From assembly GCF_900109775.1 (NCBI RefSeq), contig NZ_FOAX01000002.1:1054001-1118000 (forward strand): a stretch of DNA of 64,000 nucleotides, written 5' to 3'. The notes beneath the pieces are model-generated. The model had not been told where the DNA came from, ran no database searches, and was given only the letters and a program-made list of their open reading frames with translations. This document shows, piece by piece, positions 27,198-47,541 of this stretch. The first letter of the stretch is position 1, and each line of letters opens with the position of its first letter. Origin of the DNA: Pseudoxanthomonas sp. GM95. Its GTDB lineage: Bacteria > Pseudomonadota > Gammaproteobacteria > Xanthomonadales > Xanthomonadaceae. The position numbers were made by a program, and so were the translations under genes.

Positions 27198-27560
27198 ATG
27201 ACCACCACGCTCTACGGACTGAAGAACTGCGACACCTGTAAGAAGGCCACCAAGTGGCTGGATCGCTTCGGTGTCGCGTATGCCTTCGTGGATTACCGCG
27301 ACAACAAGCCCACGCCCGAGACGCTGGTGGAATGGGCCGGCAAGGCGGGCGGTTTCGGTGCGCTGGTCAACAAGTCCTCGACCACCTGGCGGCAGTTGCC
27401 GGACAACCGCAAGACGCCCGGCAGCGATGCCGAATGGAAGCTGCTACTGCGCGAGCATCCGCAGCTGATCAAGCGGCCGGTGGTGATCACCGACGACGGT
27501 AAGTTGAGCCAGGGCTTTTCGGATAACGGCTTCAAGGCCCGCTTCGGGATCGAGAAGTGA
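27198..27560 (+). CDS. yffB: ArsC/Spx-like thioredoxin-fold protein (YffB type)
   Basis: A 120-residue thioredoxin-fold protein of the ArsC/Spx/YffB group: [20 protein letters not shown] carries a CxxC at residues 11-14, followed by [12 protein letters not shown] and [18 protein letters not shown]. YffB relatives typically sit directly before dapE, as here; a genuine arsenate reductase role is not implied and no ars genes are present. The stop overlaps the GTG of dapE (GTGA). The physiological substrate is unknown. Confidence 0.85.
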
Positions 27561-28699
27561 GCGCATCGTGCAATAGCGCGGTCTTCGATCTGACCGTCGA
27601 TCTGGTCGCGCGCGCGTCGGTGACGCCGGACGACGCCGGCTGCCAGGCGCTGCTCGCCTCGCGTCTTGAGGCCGCCGGGTTTGCCTGCGAACACCTACGC
27701 TTCGGCGAGGTCGACAACCTGTGGGCCACGCATGGCAGCGGCGCGCCGGTGCTGGTGCTGCTCGGCCATACCGACGTGGTGCCGTCCGGCCCGGTCGAGG
27801 CGTGGACCAGCGATCCGTTCAAGCCTGAAGTGCGCGACGGCAATCTGTATGGCCGCGGCACCGCCGACATGAAGGGCAGCGTGGCCGCGTTTGTGGTCGC
27901 GGCCGAACAGTACGTCGTCGCGCATCCCGATCACATCGGCACGCTGGCGGTGCTGGTGACCAGCGACGAGGAAGGCGATGCCATCGATGGCGTGCGCCAT
28001 GTCGCCAACGTGTTCCGCGAACGCGGCCAGCGCATCGACTGGTGCATCACCGGCGAGCCGTCTTCGACCGAAACATTGGGCGATCTGCTGCGCGTCGGCC
28101 GCCGTGGCAGCCTGACCGGCACGCTCACCGTGAAGGGCGTGCAGGGCCACGTGGCCTATCCGCACAAGGCGCGCAATCCGATCCATCAGGCCGCCCCCGC
28201 ATTGGCCGAGCTGACCGCGCGGCATTGGGATGACGGCTACGAGAGCTTTCCACCGACCAGCCTGCAGATCTCGAACATTCATGCCGGCACCGGCGCCAGC
28301 AACGTGATCCCGGGCGAACTGCAGGTGTTGTTCAATCTGCGCTACAACCCGCACTGGGACGCGCCGAAGCTGGAGACCGAGATCACCGCGCTGCTGGCGC
28401 GGCACGGCCTGGAGTACGCGCTGAAGTGGCACCGCAGCGGCGAGCCGTTCTACACGCCGGAAGGCACGCTGCGCAGCGTCGCACGCGAGGTGCTGGGCCA
28501 GTTCGCCGGCGCGCCGCCGGAGGAGAGCACCGGTGGCGGTACCTCGGACGCGCGCTTCATTGCGCCGCTGGGCGCGCAGTGCATCGAGGTCGGGCCGGTC
28601 AACGCCACCATCCACCAGATCGACGAGCATGTGCGCGTGGCCGACCTGGAGCGGTTGCCGGACCTGTACCACGCCCTGATCCAACGGTTGCTCGCGTAA
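27557..28699 (+). CDS. dapE: Succinyl-diaminopimelate desuccinylase
   Basis: A 380-residue M20 di-zinc hydrolase that releases succinate from N-succinyl-LL-diaminopimelate. Metal ligands appear in [12 protein letters not shown] (His), GRGTADMKG (Asp), VTSDEEGDA (catalytic Glu-Glu), TGEPSST (Glu) and [11 protein letters not shown] (His). The dimerisation domain contains [21 protein letters not shown]. The GTG start overlaps the upstream yffB-like stop, indicating coupled translation. It ends 39 bases before the asnB leader frame. Confidence 0.96.
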
Positions 28700-28702
28700 C
28701 AG

Positions 28703-28731
28703 TTGCGCTGCAGCAAACGCCCGGGTTAAGT
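28703..28731 (+). promoter_or_regulatory. Candidate promoter of the asnB leader
   Basis: TTGCGC (28703-28708) and TTAAGT (28726-28731) are separated by 17 bases. The -10 matches the consensus at only three of six positions. The implied start of transcription, near 28738, would make the leader peptide mRNA nearly leaderless, which agrees with the absence of a ribosome site. Confidence 0.4.
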
Positions 28732-28738
28732 TCGCCCC

Positions 28739-28831
28739 ATGCTGTCCAGCCGCGTCAATGTCGTGAACAACAACAACCGCAACAATCTGCGTGCGAATAA
28801 TCGTGCGCGGCCGATGCGGGTCTGCGACTAG
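28739..28831 (+). CDS. Asparagine-rich leader peptide of asnB
   Basis: A 30-codon frame, ATG to TAG, with nine Asn codons: residues 7, 10-13, 15, 16, 20 and 21, including four AAC in a row. Asn at 30 per cent in a GC-rich genome is far above chance. The frame lies between dapE and asparagine synthetase and ends 33 bases before a perfect terminator whose 5' arm can alternatively pair with leader codons 25-28. This is the arrangement of his/trp/thr-type attenuator peptides, where starvation for the end-product amino acid stalls the ribosome. There is no Shine-Dalgarno sequence; leaderless translation is likely. Confidence 0.82.
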   Translation: MLSSRVNVVNNNNRNNLRANNRARPMRVCD

Positions 28832-28891
28832 GCAAAGAACGGAACAGCCAAGGAACCAGAAAGCCCGCATCGGAAGATGCGGGTTTTTTTT
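28811..28891 (+). promoter_or_regulatory. asnB transcription attenuator: antiterminator and terminator
   Basis: Terminator: CCCGCATC / GGAA / GATGCGGG (28864-28883), 8 bp without mismatch, then eight T. Antiterminator: CCGATGCGGG (28811-28820, inside the last codons of the leader peptide) pairs perfectly over 10 bp with CCCGCATCGG (28864-28873). The structures exclude each other. A ribosome stalled on the Asn codons leaves 28811-28820 free and the terminator cannot form; a ribosome that reaches the TAG masks that segment and transcription ends. The mechanism is inferred from layout. Confidence 0.8.
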
Positions 28892-29010: not shown

Positions 29011-30699
29011 ATGTGTTCCATCTTCGGCATCTTCGGCCTGCAATCGGGCGATGATTTGGGCGCACTGCGCCGTCAGGCGCTGGACTGCTCGCAGCGCCAG
29101 CGCCATCGTGGTCCGGACTGGAGCGGCGTGTATGTCGACGACGGCGCGATCCTGGTGCACGAGCGCCTGGCGATCGTCGATCCGGCCGGCGGCTCGCAGC
29201 CGCTGCTGAGCGAGGACGGCGCGCTGGCCCTGGCGGTCAACGGCGAGATCTACAACCACCGCGAACTCAAGGCCGAGCTGAAGCAGCCTTACGCCTTCCA
29301 GACCGGGTCGGACTGCGAGGTGATCAACGCGCTGTATCGCGAAGACGGGATCGAATCCTTCCTCAACCGCCTCAACGGGATCTTCGCCTTCGCGCTGTGG
29401 GACAAGGCCAGTGGCCGCGCGATCATCGCGCGCGACACGATGGGCGTGTGCCCGCTGTACTGGGGCCACGACAAGGAAGGCCGCCTGCGCGTGGCCTCGG
29501 AGATGAAGTCGCTGTCCGAGCATTGCGCTGATGTGGCGCAGTTCCCGCCGGGCCACTGGTACGACACCGCCACTGGCGAGCTGAAGCAGTACTACAAGCG
29601 TCCGTGGCGCGACTACGACGCGGTCAAGGATGTGGAAGTCTCCAAGCAGGAGCTGCGCGAAGCCTTTGAAGCAGCCGTGCATCGCCAGCTGATGACCGAC
29701 GTGCCCTACGGCGTGCTGCTGTCCGGCGGCTTGGATTCGTCGCTGGTCGCCGCCGTGGCCGCGCGTTATGCGCGCCATCGCATCGAGGATGGCGACAAGA
29801 CCGAAGCCTGGTGGCCGCGCCTGCATTCCTTCGCCATCGGCTTGAAGGGGTCGCCCGACCTGGCCGCCGCGGCGATTGCCGGTGAATCGCTGGGCACCGT
29901 GCACCACGGCTTCGAGTACACCTTCGAGGAAGGCCTGGACGCGCTGCCGGAAGTCATCAAGCACATCGAAACCTACGACGTGACCACCATCCGCGCCTCC
30001 ACGCCGATGTTCCTGCTGGCGCGCCGGATCAAGGCGATGGGCGTGAAGATGGTGCTCAGTGGCGAAGGCAGCGACGAGATCTTTGGCGGCTACCTGTACT
30101 TCCACAAGGCGCCGAACGCGCGCGAGTTCCATGAGGAGCTGATCCGCAAGCTGGACGCGCTGTACAACTACGACTGCCTGCGCGCGAACAAGTCGATGAT
30201 GGCCTGGGGCGTGGAACCGCGCGTGCCGTTCCTGGACCGCGAGTTCATGGACGTGGCCATGCGCATGGATGCCTCGCACAAGATGATTACCATCGGTGCC
30301 GACGGCAGGAAGCGCATCGAGAAGGCCGTGCTGCGCGAGGCGTTCGAAGGCTATCTGCCCGATTCGATCCTGTGGCGCCAGAAGGAGCAGTTCAGCGATG
30401 GCGTCGGCTACGGCTGGATCGATGGCTTGAAAGCACACGCCGAGGCGCAGGTCACCGATCGTGAGCTGGCCGCGGCCGACAAGCGCTTCCCGGTGAACCC
30501 GCCGCTGACCAAGGAGGCGTACTTCTACCGCACGCTGTTCGAGCAGGCGTTTCCGTCCCCGGCCGCCGCCGAGACCGTGCCGGGCGGCAAGTCGATCGCC
30601 TGTTCGTCGCCGGCGGCGATTGCCTGGGATGCAAGCTTCGCCAACGCGGCCGATCCGTCGGGACGCGCGATCGCCGGCGTGCACGCGCAGGCGCTGTAA
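29011..30699 (+). CDS. asnB: Asparagine synthetase B (glutamine-hydrolysing)
   Basis: A 562-residue enzyme making Asn from Asp, ATP and glutamine. After Met the nucleophile Cys2 (MCSIFGIFG) starts the class II amidotransferase domain (RQRHRGPDWSGVY, LAVNGEIYNHRELK); the synthetase domain has the PP-loop SGGLDSSLVAAVAARYA near residue 238 and LSGEGSDEIFGGYLYFHKAP. AGGAG seven bases before the ATG fixes the start. It is closer to the E. coli AsnB length (554) than to longer amidotransferase relatives. Expression is probably governed by the Asn-rich attenuator upstream. Confidence 0.95.
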   Translation: MCSIFGIFGLQSGDDLGALRRQALDCSQRQRHRGPDWSGVYVDDGAILVHERLAIVDPAGGSQPLLSEDGALALAVNGEIYNHRELKAELKQPYAFQTGSDCEVINALYREDGIESFLNRLNGIFAFALWDKASGRAIIARDTMGVCPLYWGHDKEGRLRVASEMKSLSEHCADVAQFPPGHWYDTATGELKQYYKRPWRDYDAVKDVEVSKQELREAFEAAVHRQLMTDVPYGVLLSGGLDSSLVAAVAARYARHRIEDGDKTEAWWPRLHSFAIGLKGSPDLAAAAIAGESLGTVHHGFEYTFEEGLDALPEVIKHIETYDVTTIRASTPMFLLARRIKAMGVKMVLSGEGSDEIFGGYLYFHKAPNAREFHEELIRKLDALYNYDCLRANKSMMAWGVEPRVPFLDREFMDVAMRMDASHKMITIGADGRKRIEKAVLREAFEGYLPDSILWRQKEQFSDGVGYGWIDGLKAHAEAQVTDRELAAADKRFPVNPPLTKEAYFYRTLFEQAFPSPAAAETVPGGKSIACSSPAAIAWDASFANAADPSGRAIAGVHAQAL

Positions 30700-47136: not shown

Positions 47137-47223
47137 TGGTGCCCGGGAGAGGACTCGAACCTCCACGGAGTTGCCCCCGCTAGCACCTGAAGCTAGTGCG
47201 TCTACCAATTCCGCCACCCGGGC
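47137..47223 (-). tRNA. tRNA-Leu(CAG)
   Basis: An 87-base tRNA with encoded CCA. Acceptor GCCCGGG pairs with CCCGGGC; the anticodon stem CTAGC / GCTAG encloses TTCAGGT, giving anticodon CAG (reads CUG); the long variable arm (class II) and the T-loop GTTCGAGTC are present. Differs from its neighbour 230 bases upstream chiefly by one acceptor pair. Confidence 0.97.
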
Positions 47224-47420
47224 GACTCAGGGGGCGCATTCTGCGGATGTGACGGCAGGGTGTCAAATGTTTTTTCAAACTTTTTGCATTGGCGTCGCCG
47301 TGGCGGGCGACGCAGTGCGCGTGCGTCGCTGCTGCGGAGTGCAGTGACGTGCGGGCGGTGAAGTCGGGTGCGTTTCCTGCATCGACACTGGCCAGCTGCG
47401 CGGGCCAAATCGCAGGCAAA

Positions 47421-47446
47421 AAAAGACCCGCTTTCGCGGGTCTTTT
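47421..47446 (-). terminator. Intrinsic terminator of the upstream tRNA-Leu gene
   Basis: Perfect 11-bp arms AAAAGACCCGC / GCGGGTCTTTT with a TTTC loop; the minus strand continues in T. It lies directly after the tRNA and separates the two tRNA genes. Confidence 0.9.
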
Positions 47447-47454
47447 CTTCGTCT

Positions 47455-47541
47455 TGGTGCCCAGGAGAGGACTCGAACCTCCACGGAGTTGCCCCCGCTA
47501 GCACCTGAAGCTAGTGCGTCTACCAATTCCGCCACCTGGGC
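47455..47541 (-). tRNA. tRNA-Leu(CAG), second copy
   Basis: An 87-base tRNA with encoded CCA and the same body, anticodon loop (TTCAGGT) and variable arm as the neighbouring copy. The acceptor is GCCCAGG / CCTGGGC, a compensated change of one base pair relative to the other gene. Confidence 0.97.

Follow-up and report, generated by a model that had tools for sequence, protein, structure and literature searches.

What controls asnB in this window of 64,000 nucleotides (the whole stretch of DNA analysed), and what part might be played by the Asn-rich reading frame that lies between this gene and dapE? The elements in question all lie on one strand and follow one another closely:

27557-28699, plus strand: dapE, directly upstream and on the same strand as the leader and asnB
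28739-28831, plus strand: leader frame MLSSRVNVVNNNNRNNLRANNRARPMRVCD, 30 codons, 9 of them Asn
28757-28759, plus strand: an additional Asn codon, AAT, in the same leader frame
28766-28801, plus strand: putative regulatory Asn codons, with four AAC at 28766-28777, AAC-AAT at 28781-28786 and AAT-AAT at 28796-28801
28777-28781, plus strand: candidate segment 1, CCGCA, between Asn codons, with its partner at 28815-28819 around an inner hairpin at 28787-28810
28811-28820, plus strand: segment 2, 5′ arm of the predicted antiterminator, CCGATGCGGG, in the last leader codons and ending 8 nt before the stop codon
28864-28873, plus strand: segment 3, the shared arm CCCGCATC(GG) = CCCGCATCGG, exact complement of segment 2
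28876-28891, plus strand: segment 4, 3′ arm GATGCGGG plus the T8 tract of the intrinsic terminator
28864-28891, plus strand: the whole terminator, CCCGCATC-GGAA-GATGCGGG, then eight T
29011-30699, plus strand: asnB, glutamine-hydrolysing asparagine synthase B (NCBIfam NF006949, PRK09431), the gene proposed to be controlled

A sequence-only reading of the locus had proposed an asparagine-responsive attenuator, citing a 30-codon frame with nine Asn codons, four of them consecutive, whose end would pair over 10 bp with the 5′ half of an 8-bp terminator carrying eight T, ahead of a gene that makes the sensed amino acid. Each of these elements is borne out. The frame and its Asn run lie at 28739-28831 and 28766-28777, and CCGATGCGGG is the exact reverse complement of CCCGCATCGG, which comprises the terminator 5′ arm plus two loop bases. 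The 8-bp terminator with its eight T occupies 28864-28891, and the asnB product matches the PRK09431 equivalog model at 875 bits (cut-off 499, E 1.6e-263).

We consider it highly probable (about 93%) that this region acts as a transcription attenuator of the ribosome-mediated trp/his/thr type, sensing charged tRNA-Asn and controlling asnB. Three observations, developed below, support the proposal: the conservation of an Asn-rich frame, covariation in both helices, and the presence of the leader at loci without DapE upstream. We infer the response to Asn-tRNA charging, the translation of the frame, ribosome stalling and the start site from sequence. In this model, transcription would begin at or near the leader ATG, with a ribosome trailing RNA polymerase through the Asn codons. 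When Asn-tRNA is ample, the ribosome would reach the stop codon and cover segment 2, such that the 3:4 terminator would form before asnB. Under Asn-tRNA shortage, it would instead stall within the Asn run and leave segment 2 free; the 2:3 helix would then form once segment 3 is made, segment 4 would stay single-stranded, and polymerase would read through into asnB.

The genome also encodes AsnRS (asnS, 633 bits, cut-off 342.6), and charging of tRNA-Asn should therefore follow the supply of free asparagine, a requirement of the model. The 4.35 kb surrounding asnS in the same genome gave no frame with 4 Asn in 14 codons, and so no sign of a second target. The first 1600 bases of the genome's own hisG locus contain no His-rich frame. 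Across both strands of the 4.69-Mb genome, the pattern AAYAAYAAYAAY occurs 6 times, with two overlapping occurrences (reversed control, 4), and the NN-x-NN pattern AAYAAYNNNAAYAAY has 2, one of which is the window leader (reversed control, 4). With counts this near to those of the reversed controls, Asn runs are rare in this genome and not over-represented. Two loci elsewhere in the genome that match AAYAAYAAYAAY (L168 and L172) carry Asn/Ser-repeat frames, e.g. LSNSNSNSNSN; two of the frames share the start GAEDxxLSN and may belong to a repeated element. A separate observation from the window is a pair of tRNA-Leu genes on the minus strand (47137-47541), both with anticodon CAG and about 230 bases apart.

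We next consider how widely the leader is shared. From named genomes, we took the best 80 AsnB loci, treating the closest 42 and the 38 more distant ones apart. Among the closest 42, 39 are Lysobacterales (counting L003, which is labelled Pseudomonadota only), and all 39 have an Asn-rich frame before asnB, with 3-8 Asn in the best 14 codons. The other three (L013, L026 and L041) lack the leader despite AsnB proteins 73-82% identical to that of the window. They are labelled Holophagales, Rhodococcus and Deltaproteobacteria, and these loci without an attenuator perhaps reflect transfer of the gene minus its leader, or perhaps mislabelled contigs.

In a wider search of 299 genomes of the order, 214 proved to have a close AsnB, and 80 upstream regions were fetched from among these, picked for genus spread. 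The families sampled in this way were f1, f12, f2 and f9, with f7 and further families of the order left out. An Asn-rich frame is present in all 69 regions from f1, f12 and f2; at the 11 f9 loci, where AsnB is more distant, every upstream frame has at most 3 Asn per 14 codons. Seven fetched stretches are identical to named loci, including Thermomonas, Lysobacter, Arenimonas and Stenotrophomonas for f1 and Fulvimonas for f12, and from these matches f1 would correspond to Xanthomonadaceae and f12 to Rhodanobacteraceae. Combining the window, the 39 named loci and 62 fetched stretches (the 7 identical ones removed) gives 102 distinct regions, which represent Xanthomonadaceae, Rhodanobacteraceae and a third family. 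In every one of them an Asn-rich short frame precedes asnB, with between 3 (the weakest) and 8 Asn in its best 14 codons. A start could be scored in 100 of these, the remaining two (L109 and L111) lying too close to the border of the sequence fetched. A T-tailed hairpin follows in 98 of the 100, 19-39 nt past the first base of the stop codon; in the two exceptions (L018 and L020) the hairpin is present and the T tract is unclear. The analyses below draw on the 98 leaders with a terminator, on 93 that were modelled (5 were dropped because their best duplex lies far from the stop codon), and on an alignment, A1, of 90 leader ends from which duplicates and far duplexes were removed.

If the leader end acts as an antiterminator, its pairing with the terminator 5′ arm should persist as the sequences diverge, and the earlier reading had named compensating changes in both stems as its check and lost antiterminator pairing as evidence against it. 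Pairing holds through two-sided changes in relatives. For the ten antiterminator pairs, defined on the window sequence and followed through the 90 rows of A1, 77.5% of cells are paired, against 69.8% with shuffled partners and at most 42.4% with slid ones, and the covariation score is 0.188 against 0.101 when shuffled, a value reached by none of 500 shuffles. The terminator behaves similarly, with 91.9% of cells paired (83.0% shuffled, at most 50.6% slid) and a covariation score of 0.301 against 0.155 (0 of 500). Because the rows are related, which inflates the shuffle control, we note that the slid control agrees in direction with these covariation scores. Changes on both sides are seen at 6 of the 10 antiterminator pairs (shuffled mean 5.0; 6 is reached in 5 of 500) and at 5 of 10 terminator pairs, the latter not above shuffles (338 of 500 do at least as well). 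In neither helix does the count of pair types exceed shuffles, at 15 against 16.0 for the antiterminator (455 of 500 reach it) and 14 against 13.6 for the terminator (259 of 500). The antiterminator core, GCGGG and its complement, is nearly constant in A1, and the three outer pairs fail to form in 40-48 of the 90 rows.

Duplex energies gave a second view of the same pairing. Summed over leaders, each leader end with its own terminator arm yields -1932 kcal/mol, compared with -1658 ± 29 kcal/mol when arms are permuted and -1758 kcal/mol for the best of 2000 permutations. In 92 of 98 leaders, the duplex made by the leader end is stronger than that of the stretch immediately before it. Own pairing outdoes pairing with an average foreign arm in 80 of the 98 leaders and not in all. 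In five of the 98 (L104, L110, L114, L145 and L148) the strongest duplex lies elsewhere within the leader. As judged from these alignments, the predicted antiterminator and terminator have one arm in common, and both covary.

The position of the antiterminator relative to the codons suits the model. Across the 98 leaders, the median distance from its predicted end to the stop codon is 2-3 nt, and in 77 of them the nearest upstream Asn codon starts 6-15 nt before the first base of the antiterminator. Assuming a footprint in which 12 nt are covered past the first A-site base, a ribosome within the Asn run would free segment 2 and one at the stop codon would cover it. When RNA was folded up to segment 3 with a ribosome placed at the best Asn codon, all 93 modelled leaders formed 5 or more expected 2:3 pairs. 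The 2:3 helix is also predicted to form before segment 4 in RNA free of ribosomes (median 8.6 expected pairs), and a stalled ribosome adds more than one 2:3 pair in only 41 of the 93. Once segment 4 is included, the equilibrium model often lets the terminator win despite a stalled ribosome, including at most of the window's Asn codons. Since equilibrium often favours the terminator at this stage, the proposed switch must rest on the order and timing of synthesis. The minimum-energy fold of 28739-28891 includes the 1:2 hairpin, and that stretch as a whole has a z of -3.2 against shuffles. In relatives, the folding model has 2:3 usually outcompeting 1:2 before segment 4 is made, and segment 1 as a default guard there is weakly supported.

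The region upstream of the frame suggests where the leader transcript may begin:

28703-28732, plus strand: proposed promoter, with -35 TTGCGC at 28703-28708, an 18-nt spacer and -10 TAAGTT at 28727-28732

In the window, this -10 ends 6 nt before the leader ATG. Similar TTG-type -35 and -10-like boxes precede 100 leaders, with a -10-to-start distance of 6 nt in 61, 7 in 34, 8 in 3 and 5 in 2, though these distances are partly circular, since a promoter profile guided the choice of start and only distances of 4-9 nt were searched. The starts comprise 98 ATG and 2 GTG codons. A Shine-Dalgarno-like 4-mer is found before 19 of 100 leader starts compared with 87 of 100 asnB starts. A generic sigma-70 scan at strict thresholds found no promoter at the window leader. 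The spacing of the boxes and the scarcity of Shine-Dalgarno-like 4-mers suggest that the leader transcript is probably leaderless, beginning at or near the leader ATG. PMC7298713 reports such a start for the trpL transcript of Sinorhizobium meliloti, which begins with the leader ATG.

A leaderless frame on a short terminated RNA raises the alternative that the RNA or its peptide acts mainly in trans, in the manner reported for rnTrpL and peTrpL of S. meliloti, with cis control of asnB being secondary. Such an RNA would indeed arise here, as it does in S. meliloti (PMC7298713). The features that are conserved are nonetheless those that cis control needs, namely the Asn codons, the 2:3 and 3:4 pairing and the position before asnB, and we regard a mainly trans-acting leader as improbable, although it is the rival that fares best.

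What, then, is preserved within the frame itself? In the 98 leaders with a terminator, AAY accounts for 606 of the 3401 in-frame codons, compared with 4 and 5 of 3303 in the other two frames. As the compared frame was chosen by its Asn density, this excess arises partly by choice, and the independent control is the 629-kb scan described below. The in-frame codons are divided between AAC (329) and AAT (277); with both common, it is the amino acid that is kept rather than the bases. Leader length ranges from 20 to 45 codons, and the Asn clusters differ in context by genus, as in NNRNNLRANNRARPMRVCD, NNNNRNNASLPRAGD, NNNNRANNNANRWRARA and NNNANNNPRIDGWAGV. A frame that had drifted and lost its Asn codons in relatives had been named beforehand as an outcome that would count against the attenuator; we find instead that Asn stays in frame in leaders that differ in length, in their other residues and in the choice between AAC and AAT.

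Asn is not the only enriched residue, and a leader that senses something other than Asn-tRNA, such as arginine supply or, through an arrest peptide, ribosome-targeting stress, has to be weighed. Relative to four window proteins, Arg is enriched 2.6-fold in the 100 leaders, with at least 3 Arg in 93 of them, and drug-sensing leaders exist as a kind, exemplified by an Arg-Leu-Arg uORF (PMC8632094). Asn is enriched further, at 7.2-fold, with at least 3 in 100 of 100 leaders, and Asn-Asn occurs in 98 leaders compared with 20 for Arg-Arg. Arg codons also sit in the GC-rich pairing arms, which may explain their abundance; peptide sequence and spacing vary by genus, unlike what would be expected of an arrest peptide; and the controlled enzyme itself makes Asn. 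We reject an arginine or drug sensor as the main function, and sensing of anything other than Asn-tRNA appears slightly less probable still than a mainly trans-acting leader.

A simpler explanation would be that the hairpin is a plain terminator of dapE and the Asn-rich frame a product of chance. dapE does adjoin the leader on the same strand, ending at 28699, and a DapE match is found in the fetched upstream stretch of 12 of the 42 close loci. However, of the 30 loci where no DapE match lies upstream, 27 keep the leader; 24 of these 27 have at least 1.6 kb of upstream sequence and the other three fewer than 900 bases. A strict scan, which asks for an ATG frame 15-50 codons long, 4 or more Asn within 14 codons and a T-tailed hairpin downstream, passes 33 of 40 Lysobacterales sequences upstream of asnB. 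Elsewhere in the same 629 kb, on both strands, it passes none, with three more frames that all lack a terminator. Asn is moreover kept in frame, nothing comparable lies elsewhere in the 629 kb, and a plain dapE terminator would not be expected to show 2:3 covariation. We therefore reject this explanation, which seems very improbable. Least credible of all, and rejected, is a T-box or metabolite riboswitch controlling asnB: a folded 5′ region with a terminator is common to these classes, but the conserved part here is a reading frame with its codons, and no Rfam family reaches its gathering score in the leader region.

The Asn-responsive attenuator thus remains the preferred reading for the Lysobacterales, and the more distant loci suggest that it may have a counterpart elsewhere. 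None of the 38 more distant loci passes the strict scan, yet one of them, on a metagenome-assembled contig labelled Rubrivirga (Rhodothermales; L075), has a leader with a non-ATG start. The strict scan thus misses some leaders. Four relatives of this locus (L182-L185, AsnB 78-95% identical) share an Asn-rich frame with it before asnB, with 3-5 Asn; a further match, L180, is L075's own genome, and the count of five genomes leaves out L191, whose AsnB is close (88%) over residues 219-551 only. In these five leaders, AAY accounts for 19 of 122 codons in frame and for 1 and 0 of 117 in the other frames. A terminator beginning GCGGC, with a T tract, starts 27-30 nt after the beginning of the stop codon, and the leader ends can pair with the terminator arm at -13.8 to -19.2 kcal/mol, though foreign arms pair equally well. 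The start codons may be ATG, GTG or TTG and are uncertain. These five are the only matches to frame plus terminator in 45 kb, both strands included. No such leader is found at Rhodothermales AsnB homologues of 63-67% identity (L186-L190), nor, as read by eye, at L222 (69%).

In peptides and arms alike, the Rhodothermales leaders are unlike those of Lysobacterales, a difference that points to a separate origin, and we regard them as a probable second origin; transfer of the leader followed by divergence is the alternative. On balance, we favour the view that Asn attenuation of asnB arose at least twice, once, in leaderless form, before Xanthomonadaceae and Rhodanobacteraceae diverged, and again, with other peptides and arms, in Rhodothermales, members of an unrelated phylum. 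If true, this would make Asn a regular member of the amino acids sensed by attenuation. In Photobacterium (L077), an isolated Asn-rich frame lies 135-54 bases before asnB and has no terminator; it is absent from the 29 relatives read, of which L201 has an unrelated Asn-rich stretch, also with no terminator.

The sequence-only reading knew of no attenuator for asparagine synthetase, and none surfaced in the titles and abstract openings of the openly licensed literature searched. The main earlier survey of proteobacterial attenuators, by Vitreschak in 2004, reportedly lists no Asn case in its abstract. In the portions of the sources available, the main text of PMC2965389 holds no match for 'asparagine' or 'asnB', and PMC1262725 none for 'asparag'. 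The mechanism is a classical, known kind of attenuation; what seems to be new is that it serves asparagine, that it is conserved across the families sampled in this order and that it has probably recurred. The likely leaderless start and the second lineage go beyond what had been noted before. With this leader, Asn would join the amino acids known to us as sensed through ribosome-mediated attenuation, and would do so in the order to which Xanthomonas, Stenotrophomonas and Lysobacter belong. The leader would also offer a direct, codon-replaceable reporter of Asn-tRNA charging and, being widespread, a natural test of the coupling between leaderless leader frames and attenuation, to which the Rhodothermales leaders add a case of probable convergent evolution.

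Among known systems, the Asn-specific T-boxes of Firmicutes also place asparagine genes under the control of tRNA-Asn charging through a terminator, but there the tRNA binds the RNA directly, with no ribosome or leader peptide involved. The closer likeness is to the threonine, histidine and tryptophan operon leaders, in which a short frame rich in codons for the end product, followed by an antiterminator and terminator that share an arm, stands before a biosynthetic gene. The asnB leader differs from these in its amino acid and gene, in its likely leaderless start and in having segment 2 inside the frame beside the stop codon. At a loose threshold, the top same-strand Rfam matches were Thr_leader (20.8 bits, gathering 55) and Leu_leader (19.9 bits, gathering 50), and the leader peptide gave no match to NCBIfam or Pfam models, even at E values up to 10. 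The genome's own thrA leader (L175, about 1229-1358) reads MTHLPTTANASTACLAAPGACVTGTTTITTTRGFRVWMAVQA, a Thr-rich frame placed likewise, with a promoter-like stretch, judged by eye, that ends just before the ATG; it would have the same likely leaderless design and, if functional, would sense Thr instead. The S. meliloti trpL attenuator, as described in PMC7298713, resembles the predicted asnB leader in its ATG-start transcript, and differs in sensing tryptophan, in belonging to an alphaproteobacterium and in having a known start where that of the asnB leader is predicted. Finally, PMC8632094 describes uORFC-8-2, a candidate attenuator of cysS in Rhodobacterales that came from a comparative search. 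Like the asnB leader, it combines tandem cognate codons in a leader frame with a terminator, but its amino acid is cysteine and the gene it precedes encodes a tRNA synthetase.
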